From a virus: DNA of 20,599 bases. This document shows positions 1,253-18,944 of this stretch, piece by piece (position 1 is the first letter of the stretch; each line of letters starts with the position of its first letter). The notes below the pieces were generated by a model. It saw only the letters and a list, made by a program, of their open reading frames with translations, was not told where the DNA came from and ran no database searches. Where the stretch lies: the IMG/VR virus record IMGVR_UViG_3300006805_000207, positions 1-20,599 of that record; one strand, 5' to 3'. A program made the position numbers and the translations under genes.

Positions 1253-2452
1253 ATGGGAAAAATAAAGGGTGCTGTATCTGTTGTTTCTAATAGTCCGTAT
1301 CTTCCTACTGGTTATGGTATTCAGTCTGGTTATCTTGTAGAGCGTTTGAAGCGTGATGGCGTTGATGTTGCAGCTTTGAGTAACTATGGTTTGGATGGTA
1401 TCAATAGCACTTTGAAGACACCTTATTGTGAGATTCCACATTATGCTAGGGGTTTTGAAAATTACTCTAATGATGTGATTGCTATGAATCATGCTCACCA
1501 TGTTGGTAATGCTAGACAGGCTTCTAAGACACAGTTGAATGATGTGCTATTTACTTTGTATGACGTGTGGGTATTCAAGGGTAAAGCGTTTGACAATGTT
1601 CGTCAGATAGCTTCTTGGACACCACTAGACCACATCACTATTCCGCCTAATGTTTTGAAATGGCTGAAACGTTCTAATGTGCTTCCTATTGCTATGTCTC
1701 CGCATGGTAAGAGACAGATGGAAGAGAATGGTTTGGAGTGTGAGTATATTCCACACGCTGTTGACACTAAGACTATGAAACCTACCCGAACTATCAATGG
1801 TGTTGATGGTCGCAAGTTTATGAATGTTGATGATGATGATTTCCTTGTTGGTATGAACGCAGCTAATAAGGCTTCTGGTCTTGTTCACCGTAAGGCTTTT
1901 GCAGAGAACCTTATGGCTTTTAGCATTTTTGCTAAGAACCGCCCTAACGCTAAAATCTATTTACACACAGACCCTTTTGGTGGTGCTGGTGGCTGGAATC
2001 TATTTATCCTTTGTGAATCTTTAGGTATCAAACCTGAGCAAGTGTTGTTTCCTGATATTGCTGACTACCGTTATGGTATTAGTCAAGAAGTTTTAGCTGG
2101 ATACTATACCGCTATGGATGTTCTGTTGACACCTTCTTTTGGAGAAGGTTTCGGTGTGCCTACTATTGAAGCACAAGCCTGTGGGACAAGAGTTATTGGC
2201 TCTAACTGGGCTGCTACACCTGACCTTGTATCTGAAGATTCTTGGCTTGTTGATGGGCAACCTGCTTGGGATGCAGGTCAGAACGCTTGGTGGCAGACAC
2301 CTTCTATTCCTTCTATTGTGAACGCTCTTGAAGCTGCTTACGCTAAGAAGGGTGAAAAGTCTGCAAAGAGCATTGAGTTCGCTAAACAGTTTGATGTTGA
2401 TACTGTTTGGTCTAATGAGTGGCTACCGTTATGGAAGAAACTATTAGCGTGA
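1253..2452 (+). CDS. Glycosyltransferase, GT4-like (GT-B fold)
   Basis: Predicted to transfer a sugar from an activated donor to a protein or glycan acceptor in the cytoplasm. The N-terminus has the GT-B glycine-rich loop 'LPTGYGIQSGYLVERL' near residues 17-32. The C-terminal half has the EX7E donor-binding motif EGFGVPTIE (E298 and E306), then 'AQACGTRVIGSNWAATPDLV', typical of GT4 enzymes. The length of 399 residues suits a complete two-domain enzyme. ATG at 1253 follows AAAGG at 1242-1246. The gene is the first after the capsid terminator and overlaps the next glycosyltransferase. Placement beside the capsid gene suggests capsid or tail protein glycosylation, as described for some actinobacteriophages, but the acceptor cannot be read from sequence. 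Confidence 0.85.
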   Translation: MGKIKGAVSVVSNSPYLPTGYGIQSGYLVERLKRDGVDVAALSNYGLDGINSTLKTPYCEIPHYARGFENYSNDVIAMNHAHHVGNARQASKTQLNDVLFTLYDVWVFKGKAFDNVRQIASWTPLDHITIPPNVLKWLKRSNVLPIAMSPHGKRQMEENGLECEYIPHAVDTKTMKPTRTINGVDGRKFMNVDDDDFLVGMNAANKASGLVHRKAFAENLMAFSIFAKNRPNAKIYLHTDPFGGAGGWNLFILCESLGIKPEQVLFPDIADYRYGISQEVLAGYYTAMDVLLTPSFGEGFGVPTIEAQACGTRVIGSNWAATPDLVSEDSWLVDGQPAWDAGQNAWWQTPSIPSIVNALEAAYAKKGEKSAKSIEFAKQFDVDTVWSNEWLPLWKKLLA

Positions 2453-3096
2453 TACCAGTTTTAGGGTTTCTAACTTTAAAACGCTTTGACCTTGCTGACA
2501 GGCTTCTAGCGAGCATTGACTATCCAGTAGAAGACTTAGTTATTGTAGATAACTCTGGGAAGCAAGAGTATAAACCTGTGAAACCTGAATTGGTTAAGCG
2601 AATGTGGCTTATTCAAGTTCCGCATGGTCTTGGCTATGGTGGTGGGCTAAACCTGATTGTGAAGACTACTCCTTTTGCACCGTATTGGGTTTTGTTGAAT
2701 GATGATAGTGTCCTTGCACCTGGTTCGTTAGAGAAGATTGCTACTGAAGCAGACCCTAATACCATCAACTTTTTGAGCATTATGCCTAAATGGTCTGGCT
2801 TTGTTTTGGGTGAAAAGGTTGTGAAGGATGTTGGCTTGTTTGATGAGCGTTTTCATCCAATCTATTTTGAAGATAACGACTATGAGCGCAGGATAATTCA
2901 CGCTGGTTTTGAAGCTAAGTTTATTCACGCTAGTTTGGCTCACGATAATAGTTCTACTTTGGCTAGTGGTTTTCACAGCCAGAATGACACTACTTTTGGG
3001 CGTAACCATATGCTTTACATTAGAAAAGAAAATGAAGAAGATTTTAGTGAAGGTAATTGGTCTTTGCAGATTAGGCGGGATAATTCGTGGGAGTAG
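2431..3096 (+). CDS. Glycosyltransferase, GT2-like (GT-A fold)
   Basis: A compact nucleotide-sugar-dependent transferase. The N-terminal strand 'ISVIPVLGFLTLKR' is followed by a Rossmann-like 'LVIVDNSG' and the GT-A metal/nucleotide motif NDDS (about residues 90-93), then 'GLFDERFHPIYFEDNDYERR', the acceptor-side ED(x)D(Y)xxR signature common in rhamnosyltransferase-like GT2 enzymes. Three starts are possible: GTG 2419, ATG 2431, and GTG 2449, which overlaps the upstream stop as GTGA. ATG 2431 is chosen because the N-terminal strand is retained, but GTG 2449, with GGAAG 11 nt upstream, is a real alternative. The gene overlaps the genes on both sides, so the three are probably translationally coupled. 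The C-terminal ~30 residues are not recognisable. Confidence 0.82.
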   Translation: MEETISVIPVLGFLTLKRFDLADRLLASIDYPVEDLVIVDNSGKQEYKPVKPELVKRMWLIQVPHGLGYGGGLNLIVKTTPFAPYWVLLNDDSVLAPGSLEKIATEADPNTINFLSIMPKWSGFVLGEKVVKDVGLFDERFHPIYFEDNDYERRIIHAGFEAKFIHASLAHDNSSTLASGFHSQNDTTFGRNHMLYIRKENEEDFSEGNWSLQIRRDNSWE

Positions 3097-3530
3097 TTTA
3101 TACAGGTGGCACTTTTGACTTGTTTCATGCAGGTCATGTAGCGTTTCTTAGGTCTTGTAAGCGTATTGCTGGCAAGGATGGGCGTGTGGTGGTGAGTTTG
3201 AATACTGATGAGTTTATTGCAGCTTATAAGGGTAAGCCACCTATCATGTCTTATTCTGAGCGTAAAGCGGTGTTGATGGCTTGCAGGTATGTGGATGCTG
3301 TTGTAGATAACATTGGTGGTGTTGATTCTAAGCCAGCGATTTTGAATGTTATCCCTGATTTTGTGGTTATTGGTGATGATTGGGCTAAGAAGGATTATTA
3401 TGCTCAAATGCAGTTCACTCAGGAGTGGTTGGATGGGAATAAAATACAGCTTTGTTATGTTCCTTATACTGTGGGTGTGAGTTCTACCGATATCAAGGCT
3501 CGTATAGTAAATAACGCTAAAATTGGTTAG
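3087..3530 (+). CDS. Cytidylyltransferase, TagD/glycerol-3-phosphate type
   Basis: Predicted to activate an alditol or sugar phosphate with CTP (glycerol-3-phosphate giving CDP-glycerol in the TagD family). The core is clear: 'YTGGTFDLFHAGH' with HAGH at 14-17, 'STDEF'-like NTDEF at 39-43, 'RYVD' at 67-70, GDDW at 96-99, and 'GVSSTDIKARI' near the end. Length 147 is close to bacterial TagD. In place of the TagD signature RTEGISTT the protein has YTVGVSST at 127-134, so the substrate may differ. Start GTG 3087 overlaps the preceding gene by 10 nt and gives the expected N-terminal strand. It probably supplies an activated donor to the two upstream transferases; which product is made is inference. 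Confidence 0.83.
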   Translation: MGVVYTGGTFDLFHAGHVAFLRSCKRIAGKDGRVVVSLNTDEFIAAYKGKPPIMSYSERKAVLMACRYVDAVVDNIGGVDSKPAILNVIPDFVVIGDDWAKKDYYAQMQFTQEWLDGNKIQLCYVPYTVGVSSTDIKARIVNNAKIG

Positions 3531-10212: not shown

Positions 10213-11364
10213 ATGCCAAAGTTGACAAGACTTTTGTTTGTTTTGTTTTTGGCATTTGCACCGATTCTGACCTTTACACCTACGGCACAGGCAGAACCCT
10301 TACAGGGTTTAGGTGTAGATGTTTATACGTTTGACCCGTCAGCGTTACCTGAAAGACAGCCTTATACGTTGTGTGATGGTGCTTGGACTTCTGTGCCTAA
10401 TGTTAACCATGATTGGGGTGGCGATATTGTTGCTGGCTGTCAGTCAGATTTTGTGGTTATTCATTATTACGGCTACATTACTTTAGATTATTCGGGTGAT
10501 GTGTGGTTTCAGTCTTTGGCTGATGATGGTTTTGTTATGTCTATTGGTGATGAGACTGTTATTGATGATTGGACTTTGAAGGGTTGTTCTGGTTCTTCTG
10601 GGGTTCATTCTTTTGAAGCTGGTGTGTCTCAAAAGTTTGATGCTTGGTGGTATGAGTATGGTGGTGGGGCTTGTAACATTTTGTATGCCAATGTTGATTT
10701 TAATTGGGGTGTTGTGTCTGAGTCAGCGTTTTCTAGGGATGCTGTTGAACCGCCTGTGGTTGTTCCGCCTATCGTTGAACCGCCTATCGTTGAGCCACCT
10801 GTTGTTGAACCGCCTGTGGTTGAGCCACCAGTTGTAGAACCTGTTGACCCTGAGCCACCAATTAAACCTGAGCCACCTGTTGAACCACCTGTCGTTGTTC
10901 CGCCAGTTGTTGAACCTGAGATTCCTATAGTTCCTGTTCTACCGCCTGTTATAGAACCTGAGCCTAAGCCTTCTATTGTAGATGTTGATTTGACTGAAAT
11001 TGACCCACAAAGCCTTTCAAAAGAAGATGTGGCTCTACTTACGGCTGATGCTTTACAGACCTTTGAGACGGCTGTTGAAGGCTCGGATGAGTATATCCAG
11101 GCTTTAGAGCAGTTGATGATTGTTGCTCAGGCTGACGATATTGTGGTTTCTGAAGAGTTGGCTAGTGTGCCTGTATTGGGTGCAACGATTGTTGGTTTGA
11201 CTAATGCTTTTAATGCTTTAGGTAACTTTGGTGCAGATATGTCTCCGAAGGCTAGACATAAAGCTAAACAGGAAGTTGTGGCAGCTGTTATTGTCACACA
11301 AATAGCAACTACGGCAGTTGGGCTGACTGCTTCAGCACCATCATCTATTAGGAGAATAAAGTGA
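10213..11364 (+). CDS. Secreted PA14-domain protein with Pro-rich linker
   Basis: 383 residues. Residues 1-27 are a Sec signal peptide: positive N-region, hydrophobic core 'LLFVLFLAFAPILTF', cleavage site AQA at 25-27. Residues ~50-165 match the PA14 carbohydrate-binding fold: 'YYGYITLDYSGDVWFQSLAD', DDG at 104-106, then 'IGDETVIDDW'. Four cysteines could form disulfides. Residues 177-254 are a low-complexity linker built of VEPP/VVPP/IVEPP units. The C-terminal ~125 residues are helical, with a hydrophobic segment 'VVAAVIVTQIATTAVGL' before a basic end, which could anchor it in the membrane. It sits between tail and endolysin genes. Likely acts at the host cell envelope (adhesion, receptor blocking or lysis aid); a virion role is possible but less expected with a signal peptide. 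Confidence 0.72.
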   Translation: MPKLTRLLFVLFLAFAPILTFTPTAQAEPLQGLGVDVYTFDPSALPERQPYTLCDGAWTSVPNVNHDWGGDIVAGCQSDFVVIHYYGYITLDYSGDVWFQSLADDGFVMSIGDETVIDDWTLKGCSGSSGVHSFEAGVSQKFDAWWYEYGGGACNILYANVDFNWGVVSESAFSRDAVEPPVVVPPIVEPPIVEPPVVEPPVVEPPVVEPVDPEPPIKPEPPVEPPVVVPPVVEPEIPIVPVLPPVIEPEPKPSIVDVDLTEIDPQSLSKEDVALLTADALQTFETAVEGSDEYIQALEQLMIVAQADDIVVSEELASVPVLGATIVGLTNAFNALGNFGADMSPKARHKAKQEVVAAVIVTQIATTAVGLTASAPSSIRRIK

Positions 11365-11994: not shown

Positions 11995-12284
11995 TGAACT
12001 GGAAGTCTAGGGCTAAAGATGTTGTGGCGGTTATGGCTACGCTTGCTTGGCGTGGTTTTGGTATTTTTCTTTACATCTTGGGTGGCTCTATGGGTGTTGG
12101 TGCAGCTCTAACAGGCAACTGGGTTACAGGTGTGTTGGTTGCTTGGGGAACGCTGATGCTTGGCGTTATTGGTGTTATCGGTTATGCGATTGCTACTACT
12201 GGTAAGGCTACTAAGGAAGATGTTGCTAAGGGTTCTCAGGATGCTATCCAGAAGGCTAAAGATTCCGCCGAGAAACAGAAATAG
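11994..12284 (+). CDS. Putative holin, two TM segments
   Basis: 96 residues. There are two hydrophobic segments, ~residues 18-38 ('WRGFGIFLYILGGSMGVGAA') and ~44-67 ('VTGVLVAWGTLMLGVIGVIG'), then a charged, lysine-rich helical C-terminus 'KATKEDVAKGSQDAIQKAKD'. This is the usual class II holin layout, and it is coupled to the endolysin. Its last 29 nt overlap the 3' end of the convergent whiB gene. Confidence 0.65.
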   Translation: MNWKSRAKDVVAVMATLAWRGFGIFLYILGGSMGVGAALTGNWVTGVLVAWGTLMLGVIGVIGYAIATTGKATKEDVAKGSQDAIQKAKDSAEKQK

Positions 12285-12561
12285 ACTTACGAAAGTTTCT
12301 TCTTTCATCTGGGTCTAATCCGCCCCAAATACCGAATTCTTCTCGTGCTTCAAGAGCATACATTCTGCACTCTTCTATTATTGGGCAGCTTTGGCAGAGT
12401 GATTTTGCTATTTGTGTGTCTTCTCTGCGTTTGATTTCTCCACCTTCAGGGTAGAAGGTGTCGGGAAAGTTTCGGCATGGAACTTCGCCTACTTCGTCTA
12501 TTTTCTCTAATAGTGAAAATAATTTTCGTGAAATGGGTATCATTTGTCGGTGGTCTGTCAT
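12256..12561 (-). CDS. whiB: WhiB-family [4Fe-4S] transcription factor
   Basis: 101 residues. The four cluster-binding cysteines are C29, C56, C59 and C65 (C-x26-C-x2-C-x5-C), followed by the WhiB turn 'EFGIWGGLDPDERR' at 75-88 and a basic C-terminal tail 'RNFRKSISVSRRNL' suited to DNA contact. WhiB proteins act with the host primary sigma factor; known phage versions, such as that of mycobacteriophage TM4, interfere with host whiB2 and cell division. It is the only leftward gene here, separated from the rightward exonuclease by a short divergent region. Its role could be phage gene control or takeover of a host Wbl regulon. Confidence 0.92.
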   Translation of the reverse strand: MTDHRQMIPISRKLFSLLEKIDEVGEVPCRNFPDTFYPEGGEIKRREDTQIAKSLCQSCPIIEECRMYALEAREEFGIWGGLDPDERRNFRKSISVSRRNL

Positions 12562-17342: not shown

Positions 17343-17601
17343 AAAACTCAACGAGTGGATTGAACGTGCTTTTGAGAATGGTAAGCGTGAAGAACAAGAA
17401 CGCATCATAAACATAATCAAAGAAAATAACCATGACACTATTTGCACAGAAACTGGATGTCATTGTTTTGGTCTTGATGAATTGATTTCTTTGATTACAG
17501 GTCAACCTACTCAATGTGAGTGTGACCCTTGCGATAACCCTGACTGTAAATGTCGTGGCAAGCGGTGCAGCTTTTGTTTAGGACAAGATGAAAATAGGTA
17601 G
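17323..17601 (+). CDS. Cys-rich protein, possible metal binding
   Basis: 92 residues. An N-terminal amphipathic helix 'NEKLNEWIERAFENGKREEQ' is followed by 'TICTETGCHCFGLDELISLI' and a Cys-rich end 'CECDPCDNPDCKCRGKRC' plus 'FCLG'. With 11 cysteines in the C-terminal half it may bind one or more zinc ions or be a metallothionein-like fold. No family is recognised. It overlaps the methyltransferase alpha start by 14 nt, so it is coupled to it. Confidence 0.55.
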   Translation: MSWAENEKLNEWIERAFENGKREEQERIINIIKENNHDTICTETGCHCFGLDELISLITGQPTQCECDPCDNPDCKCRGKRCSFCLGQDENR

Positions 17602-18154
17602 CCTATTCTCAGGTTACGGTGGGCTAGACCTTGCAGTTACAGCCGTTACTGGTGGCGAAGTTATCTGGCATTGTGAATGGGATGATGCACCAAGCAAAAT
17701 CCTTGAACGAAACTTTCCAGGTATCCCTAACTACAGGGATGTAACGAAAGTAGATTTTACACAAGTAGAAAAAGTAGATATTTTGACTGGCGGTTTTCCT
17801 TGCCAAGATTTATCTATTGCAGGTAAAAGGGCAGGTCTGAAGGATGGCACTAGAAGTGGTCTTTGGTCAGAGTTTGCTAGAGCAATTGAAGCGATACAAC
17901 CTAAATTGGTTGTTATAGAAAATGTTAGGGGAATACTAAGTGCTGAAGCAAATAGCGGTTTGGAATACGGAGAAGAAGATTTGGCTATCCCCAATGGACA
18001 GCCTTTTCTCCGAGCAATTGGATGTGTTTTGGGAGACTTGGCCGATTTGGGGTATGACGGCAAATGGTGTGGCATACGAGCAGCTGATGCAGGAGCTGCC
18101 CATAACCGATTCAGAGTCTTCATTATCGCCTATCCCAGACGAATCGCTGATTAG
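17588..18154 (+). CDS. DNA cytosine-C5 methyltransferase, alpha part (motifs I-VIII)
   Basis: 188 residues covering the catalytic half of a C5 methyltransferase: AdoMet motif I 'IGSLFSGYGGLD' at 3-14, motif IV 'GGFPCQD' with catalytic C72, motif VI 'ENV' at 111-113, and motif VIII 'AGAAHNRFRVFI' (R174, R176). It stops at 18154 right after motif VIII, so it lacks the target recognition domain and motifs IX-X. These are found in a second frame that begins inside this gene. Such a split matches the two-gene M.AquI type of methyltransferase. ATG 17588 overlaps the Cys-rich gene. Expected to modify phage DNA against restriction; no partner nuclease is visible. Confidence 0.88.
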   Translation: MKIGSLFSGYGGLDLAVTAVTGGEVIWHCEWDDAPSKILERNFPGIPNYRDVTKVDFTQVEKVDILTGGFPCQDLSIAGKRAGLKDGTRSGLWSEFARAIEAIQPKLVVIENVRGILSAEANSGLEYGEEDLAIPNGQPFLRAIGCVLGDLADLGYDGKWCGIRAADAGAAHNRFRVFIIAYPRRIAD

Positions 18155-18944
18155 AACTCCGTCAGTTACTGACTCTACTGGTGGGGCTATTAGTGAAGTT
18201 CAAGCTCGTGGGCGTGGTCGTATGGTGAAGACTGCTGACCAGATGGCTCAGTTAGCTGCAGAGAATGGTTTGAAGGTTTCTGACAGTATTGCTATGTCTT
18301 TATTGCCTACACCTAGAGCGCAAGAACCAGGTTCAACAAGTGCTGGTTATGGTGATTGCTTGAATGATGTTGCTAATCGTCTTACTAAGGGCTTTGCACC
18401 TAAAGATTTGTTACCTACTCCTGCTGTTGGTCATATCCGTAACCATGATGAACCTATTGAAAACTATTTAGAGCGTAGGCAAGATTATCTTGATGGCAAA
18501 ACTAAGGGTATGCCTGGGGCTAGTCTTGGTGTTGCTGTGCGTATGGAATTACTTATGACACCAGTTGCATCTGAAGGCATCAAAGCACCTGCACAACAAA
18601 CAAGCGAAACTAAATCAAAGACAGGTCAAGTTTGGTTGAGTAATCAAGCTAAGGACATGGAAATTGGTTGGGGTAAGTTTGAGCCAGCCATCAGAAGATG
18701 GGAACAAACAATAGATAGACCAGCACCAGCACCCACTAAACCAGATGGAAAAGATGGTAATCACCGTCTTTCTGCTGAGTTTACTGAATGGATGATGGGG
18801 CTTCCTGCTGGTTGGATTACAGACCCTGAAATTGGGTTGACAAGAAATGAGCAATTAAAAGCGTGTGGTAATGGTGTTGTTCCACAACAAGCGGAACTAG
18901 CATTGAGAATATTGCTACAAGATATTGAATTGAAAGGGAACTAA
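17940..18944 (+). CDS. DNA cytosine-C5 methyltransferase, beta part (TRD, IX-X)
   Basis: 334 residues. The C-terminal ~60 residues carry motif IX/X material: 'LSAEFTEWMMGLPAGW' and 'NEQLKACGNGVVPQQAELAL' (GNGVVP at 310-315). The N-terminal part, which overlaps the alpha gene by 215 nt in another frame, holds 'QLDVFWETWPIWGMTANGVA', the WPxxGMTxxGxAY pattern found in other phage methyltransferase second subunits. The middle has repeated 'LLPTP' and 'RTPS' elements, common there. GTG 17940 has its own AGGGG at 17927-17931 with an 8-nt spacer, supporting separate translation rather than frameshifting. Probably the sequence-recognition subunit; the target is unknown. Confidence 0.78.
   Translation: MLKQIAVWNTEKKIWLSPMDSLFSEQLDVFWETWPIWGMTANGVAYEQLMQELPITDSESSLSPIPDESLIRTPSVTDSTGGAISEVQARGRGRMVKTADQMAQLAAENGLKVSDSIAMSLLPTPRAQEPGSTSAGYGDCLNDVANRLTKGFAPKDLLPTPAVGHIRNHDEPIENYLERRQDYLDGKTKGMPGASLGVAVRMELLMTPVASEGIKAPAQQTSETKSKTGQVWLSNQAKDMEIGWGKFEPAIRRWEQTIDRPAPAPTKPDGKDGNHRLSAEFTEWMMGLPAGWITDPEIGLTRNEQLKACGNGVVPQQAELALRILLQDIELKGN

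Follow-up and report, generated by a model that had tools for sequence, protein, structure and literature searches.

The locus investigated here raises the question of whether a single stretch of DNA can encode parts of two proteins at once and, if so, what kind of enzyme would result. The window, by which we denote the entire stretch of 20,599 nucleotides that was analysed (positions 1 to 20,599 of the IMG/VR virus record IMGVR_UViG_3300006805_000207), contains two open reading frames, termed alpha and beta, which share exactly 215 nucleotides (17940-18154), with beta being read in frame +1 relative to alpha. The claim of a first-pass annotation that both frames are protein-like over these 215 nucleotides is borne out by our analysis, which recovered both again in more than 100 related loci. 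We consider it very likely that region 17588-18944 encodes a two-subunit C5-methyltransferase from overlapping genes, in which beta has its own GTG start and whose chains would assemble as in M.AquI and M.EcoHK31I into a protective and probably multispecific enzyme. The relevant features are located as follows:

17588 to 18154, plus strand: alpha, the large half of a C5-cytosine methyltransferase with motifs I-VIII (ATG start, 188 amino acids)
17603 (FSGYGG), 17789 (GGFPCQ), 17918 (ENV) and 18089 to 18124 (RFRVF), plus strand: alpha motifs, located in the sequence
17918 to 17942, plus strand: start signals of beta within the alpha codons ENVRGILS, with a Shine-Dalgarno-like AGGGGA at 17927-17932, TAA at 17937-17939 and GTG at 17940
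17940 to 18944, plus strand: beta, the second subunit in frame +1 (GTG start, 334 amino acids), with the overlap peptide, four LPTP-type modules and motifs IX and X
17940 to 18154, plus strand: dual-coding overlap of alpha VI-VIII and the N-terminal part of beta (beta-N), identified by stop depletion, codon randomisation and synonymous conservation
17961 to 18083, plus strand: conserved beta-N peptide WNxxxxxW ... ETWPxxGMTxNGxAYE, from alignments and profile tests
18147 to 18668, plus strand: four tandem modules, predicted target-recognition units (LIRTP 18147, LLPTP 18300, LLPTP 18408, LLMTP 18549), from a module scan
18669 (WGKFEPAIRRWE), 18762 to 18815 (motif IX, HRLSAEFTEWMMGLPAGW) and 18861 to 18890 (motif X, CGNGVVPQQ), plus strand: 3' part of beta, assigned by homology to motifs IX-X of fused relatives

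The assignment of alpha is evident from the presence of motifs I-VIII including PCQ, ENV and RxR, with motif VIII (AGAAHNRFRVFI) located at 18089-18124, and from its match to positions 1-161 of 324 of the Pfam family DNA_methylase (PF00145, E 5.6e-40); it also matches phrog_363/116, and its nearest solved structure is M.HhaI (E 5e-18). In beta, whose frame encodes ETWPIWGMTANGVAYEQ at 18033-18083, residues 4 to 327, including the part encoded by the overlap, match phrog_1008, annotated as 'DNA methyltransferase' (E 3.8e-54). Searches of beta against Pfam and of its profile against PDB sequences gave no match. Instead, its role is illustrated by the alignment of residues 56/74-333 with the C-terminal half of single-chain methyltransferases; a further single-chain relative, L235, covers positions 5 to 312 of the 324 in Pfam DNA_methylase. 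Together with the motif positions, these comparisons place the recognition region and motifs IX and X in beta and the end of alpha after motif VIII, in line with the division proposed initially. An AlphaFold model of beta alone, based on 34 homologues, is of low confidence (mean pLDDT 63.5, pTM 0.32); within residues 1-50 of beta-N it contains short strands, in blocks with a pLDDT of 64-81, and a Foldseek search of this model against the PDB found nothing significant.

The described organisation is not confined to the window. A scan of IMG/VR with beta, and with alpha outside the overlap, recovered the same split in more than 40 independent contigs, and it is also found in cultured actinophages. 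In split relatives, alpha stops at about 183-197 residues with beta open in +1. Pairs annotated as 'DNA methylase' in actinophages, which belong to the same family as the window pair, include gp80/gp79 of Mycobacterium phage Anthony with an annotated overlap of exactly 215 nucleotides and 067a/b of ArV1 with 266 nucleotides. Whereas such pairs are known from annotation, a search of the open-access literature found no description of the alpha/beta overlap. The out-of-frame HNH insertion described in a related actinophage methylase in the ShiLan paper (PMC11855218) is a different phenomenon. The overlap in the window is also not unusually long for its family, as had been supposed, since the overlaps in related loci mostly measure 206-404 nucleotides, those of split forms 200-400 nucleotides, and other relatives contain a nested +1 reading frame of roughly 100-400 codons.

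The existence of single-chain homologues, such as those of MidnightRain (484 residues) and prophiT49-1 (456 residues), could be taken as a sign that the window contains one methyltransferase gene interrupted by a frameshift that arose in sequencing or assembly, or else a gene that has recently decayed into a pseudogene. The first-pass annotation had named continuous homologues that reveal an assembly frameshift as an outcome that would overturn its proposal, and it had suggested a search for homologues that keep both frames, which exist in the related loci and cultured phages described above. Continuous genes do exist, but they retain the +1 reading frame together with its start signals and thus constitute variants of one two-frame system rather than assembly errors. 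Since dozens of independent contigs (44 of the 147 loci collected without bias) and cultured phages share the split, and since both frames are under selection, we regard a broken gene as refuted for all practical purposes. A natural frame disruption of the methyltransferase gene is apparently found in Mycobacterium phage Kingsley (L392:837-2154), where alpha as annotated stops short of motif VIII and the gene that follows crosses from the beta-N frame into motif VIII. In other public records, gene models either shorten beta by placing its start after the overlap (L052, L390 and L391, from Arthrobacter phage Abidatro and from ByChance and Orcanus) or leave alpha unannotated (L055, from Jinkies), and the conserved N-terminus of beta is consequently absent from databases.

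Selection on the +1 frame is reflected in several of its properties. In a codon randomisation, the alpha protein was kept fixed while synonymous codons were redrawn from local usage and the resulting +1 peptide was scored by profile. At the window locus (L056), beta scores 79.4 bits compared to a mean of 14.5 and a maximum of 35.3 bits in 200 randomisations, and about 1% of the redrawn versions of its overlap stay free of stops in +1. Across 119 loci, where the profile applied to split genes had been trained on fused ones and vice versa, mean scores of 83-91 bits compare to 19-28 bits after randomisation (mean z about 7, all p<0.01). The first set of fused genes was biased by its retrieval via the beta-N motif and was supplemented by loci fetched solely with alpha residues 1-117, outside the overlap, and dereplicated to 147. 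Most loci of this unbiased set keep the motif with z values of 3-9, and in distant C5-methyltransferases from Bacteroidales, Bifidobacterium and Clostridia the corresponding value is about 0-2. In the unbiased loci, stops in +1 were observed once in split genes, where 81.4 would be expected, and twice in fused genes (29.4 expected), whereas +2 stops are not depleted to the same degree (121 compared to 169.8 expected in split and 71 compared to 48.0 in fused genes). Synonymous sites show an equivalent pattern. In pairs sharing less than 75% alpha identity, which comprise related and hence non-independent sequences, the observed over expected ratio of identical codons increases from 1.05 upstream to 1.56 in the overlap of split genes and from 0.98 to 1.18 in fused genes, compared to 1.03 and 1.10 in controls, with upstream synonymous sites at background; for pairs below 60% identity, the ratios are 1.54 in split and 1.13 in fused genes. 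An unconstrained evolution of one frame, which the first-pass annotation had regarded as fatal to its proposal, is contradicted by the conservation of synonymous codons, the depletion of +1 stops and the profile scores.

A strongly conserved sequence of alpha in motifs VII/VIII automatically generates some resemblance in +1, as manifested in the 19-28 bits that persist upon randomisation, and the records of Abidatro, ByChance and Orcanus annotate beta from beyond the overlap. Both would be expected if beta truly started near the stop of alpha and the overlapping +1 peptide were a shadow of alpha conservation. However, the real scores exceed this shadow by about 60 bits, +1 stops are nearly absent, synonymous sites are constrained and beta is preceded by a Shine-Dalgarno sequence and a GTG built from rare codons, which makes such a scenario very unlikely. 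It is even less probable that the overlap is constrained as DNA or RNA, be it as a structure or a binding site, rather than as protein. While this would account for the conservation of synonymous alpha positions, the constraint is frame specific, since stops disappear from +1 while they remain in +2, and the +1 peptide motif is retained where alpha has different residues (CPWCMG versus EEDLA variants). The +1 frame is thus under selection as a protein, and selection maintains the overlap in hundreds of related phages.

The signals for the initiation of beta are embedded in motif VI of alpha. In the window, this region reads AGGGGA-ATACTAA-GTG, where the in-frame TAA directly preceding the GTG at 17940 makes an earlier start in that frame impossible. 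In many loci, the motif-VI codons E-N-V-R-G-L-L-S encode a Shine-Dalgarno sequence (AGA GGA or AGG GGN) and either a GTG (formed by Ser AGT and the following G) or an ATG provided by N-V (AAT G). The AGR..AGTG arrangement is enriched among relatives. Among the GC-rich fused relatives, 18 of 33 sites use Ser AGT, against a background of 1.8% (p 3e-23), and AGR and AGT jointly occur in 12 of 22, compared to 0.03 expected. The Shine-Dalgarno sequence and GTG of beta are therefore made up of codons seldom used in GC-rich relatives, and these embedded signals make an independent initiation of beta the most likely case, even where alpha is 'fused'. Neither type of start is present in 16 of 42 GC-rich fused loci, where either other starts are used or beta is not made.

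The origin of beta-N (consensus IAxWN..W..ETWPxSGMTxNGxAYE) is illuminated by its location. The peptide ETWPIWGMTANGVAYEQ is the +1 reading of GDLADLGYDGKWCGIRAA in alpha, within the motif VII/VIII territory present in all C5-methyltransferases. No beta-N was found without an overlapping alpha, which is present in 178 of 178 loci, and plasmid searches returned few matches. In a tree of alpha, most lineages without beta-N fall outside (SH-aLRT 89). Since beta-N occurs exclusively inside alpha and is lacking in distant C5-methyltransferases, a novel frame that is itself under selection appears confined to one lineage within an older gene, and beta-N is best explained as having arisen by overprinting of motif VII/VIII, which is its simplest origin and agrees with the initial suggestion. 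The 'ETWP...' pattern, which the first-pass annotation had associated with second subunits of other phage methyltransferases, is not an independent domain that occurs elsewhere but itself results from reading motif VII/VIII of these genes in +1.

Relatives of the window form a series with respect to the frames that encode their C-terminal motifs. In split genes, motifs IX and X are both located in +1; 22 loci show the division of M.EcoHK31I, with IX in +1 but X encoded by the alpha frame; and in fused genes both mostly reside in the alpha frame. At least nine changes between these states are required on the tree, and the +1 reading frame is retained in all three, encoding beta-N and one or more LPTP modules in most fused genes. 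Where fused genes carry modules in both frames, those in +1 all precede those in frame 0 (15 of 15), which indicates a single switch point. Modules thus occur in both frames, as 57 of 99 frame-0 modules match a +1 module elsewhere with at least 60% identity (up to 97%). The spacing of modules in split betas has a median of 43 residues (interquartile range 37-50), and from their position between motifs VIII and IX, their size and their exchange, these tandem units of about 43 residues are probably target-recognition units. A divergent nested +1 family in C5-methyltransferase genes (L307, L312, L319, L327, L330, L332, L338 and L342), with an overlap peptide TWKxKxT...RLLFQLxPSxxxTEE, shows strong synonymous constraint (1.53 in the overlap compared to 1.06 upstream) and an EcoHK31I-like motif division. 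With moderate confidence, we propose a widespread phage and prophage family that encodes one enzyme in two frames, with an overprinted beta-N and modules serving as exchangeable cassettes in either frame, where repeated sliding of one frame-switch point would have given rise to split, EcoHK31I-like and 'fused' forms.

The +1 relationship of both frames and the natural occurrence of joined forms would also be compatible with a programmed ribosomal frameshift, which joins alpha and beta into a transframe single chain, with or without separate subunits. Yet, a single shift site leaves the selection on both frames over more than 60 codons and the embedded Shine-Dalgarno sequence and GTG unexplained, and in the 22 EcoHK31I-like loci, where +1 encodes motif IX and frame 0 motif X, two shifts would be required. 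Although less improbable than the other alternatives, we thus consider this mechanism unlikely.

With beta initiated separately, a mechanism for the enzyme can be proposed. Alpha would supply the cofactor-binding and catalytic motifs I-VIII, whereas beta, for which the motif-VI codons of alpha supply a Shine-Dalgarno sequence and a separate GTG start, would contribute the overprinted N-terminal segment, four predicted DNA-target modules and motifs IX-X. By analogy to M.AquI and M.EcoHK31I, both chains would assemble into one active enzyme, although in fused relatives all catalytic motifs can reside on one chain. The presence of several modules suggests that several target sites are probably methylated, and such methylation would shield the phage from host restriction; a protective role is suggested by the neighbourhood, where none of the examined genes was recognised as encoding a restriction enzyme and the adjacent genes serve phage recombination and replication (YqaJ, RusA). 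Elsewhere in the window, a WhiB-family regulator (12256-12561, minus strand) points to an actinobacterial host, a PA14-domain protein that includes a region of tandem VVEPPVVEPP repeats adjoins an M23 peptidase (10213-11364), and two glycosyltransferase-like genes and a cytidylyltransferase-like gene are located between the major capsid and later structural genes (1253-3530), which is an unusual site for sugar-modification genes.

Demonstrations of long same-strand dual coding with clear selection on both frames are rare for DNA phages, and such regions are erased by annotation practice, which in several phage records shortens beta or omits alpha. The described family offers many natural replicates for comparing the overprinted segment, embedded starts and modules in two frames, and it makes the origin of overprinted proteins and the retargeting of methyltransferases by phages amenable to testing.

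The organisation of the window finds its counterparts in described two-chain and multispecific enzymes. In M.EcoHK31I, the gene of the large subunit also encodes the small subunit in an alternative frame. The second subunit of the window is equally read from an overlapping different frame (+1, 215 nucleotides). In M.EcoHK31I, which recognises YGGCCR, the C5-methyltransferase motifs are shared between two polypeptides, and in M.AquI (CYCGRG) the large subunit contains motifs I-VIII and the small subunit the distal variable region and motifs IX-X (PMC3404938). The resemblance to M.AquI noted in the first-pass annotation holds for this division, which is the same in the window, whereas alpha of M.AquI carries part of the variable region and that of the window practically none, and the window genes overlap by 215 nucleotides with both frames selected, M.AquI being compared by its description only. 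Unlike in M.EcoHK31I, where the large subunit contains motif X and the small one only IX, beta of the window contains both, along with several tandem modules and a conserved overprinted N-terminal segment of 65 or more residues; the M.EcoHK31I division is found in the 22 relatives mentioned above, again compared by description only. Multispecific phage C5-methyltransferases of the SPbeta/phi3T type contain tandem recognition modules of about 40 residues between motifs VIII and IX, all in one chain. The window shares such modules between VIII and IX but carries them in beta, and in relatives each of the two reading frames may hold a share of them. M.EcoHK31I is thus the closest described relative at least as much as M.AquI, and our results suggest that its two-chain design, of which very few examples have been characterised, is widespread among phages.
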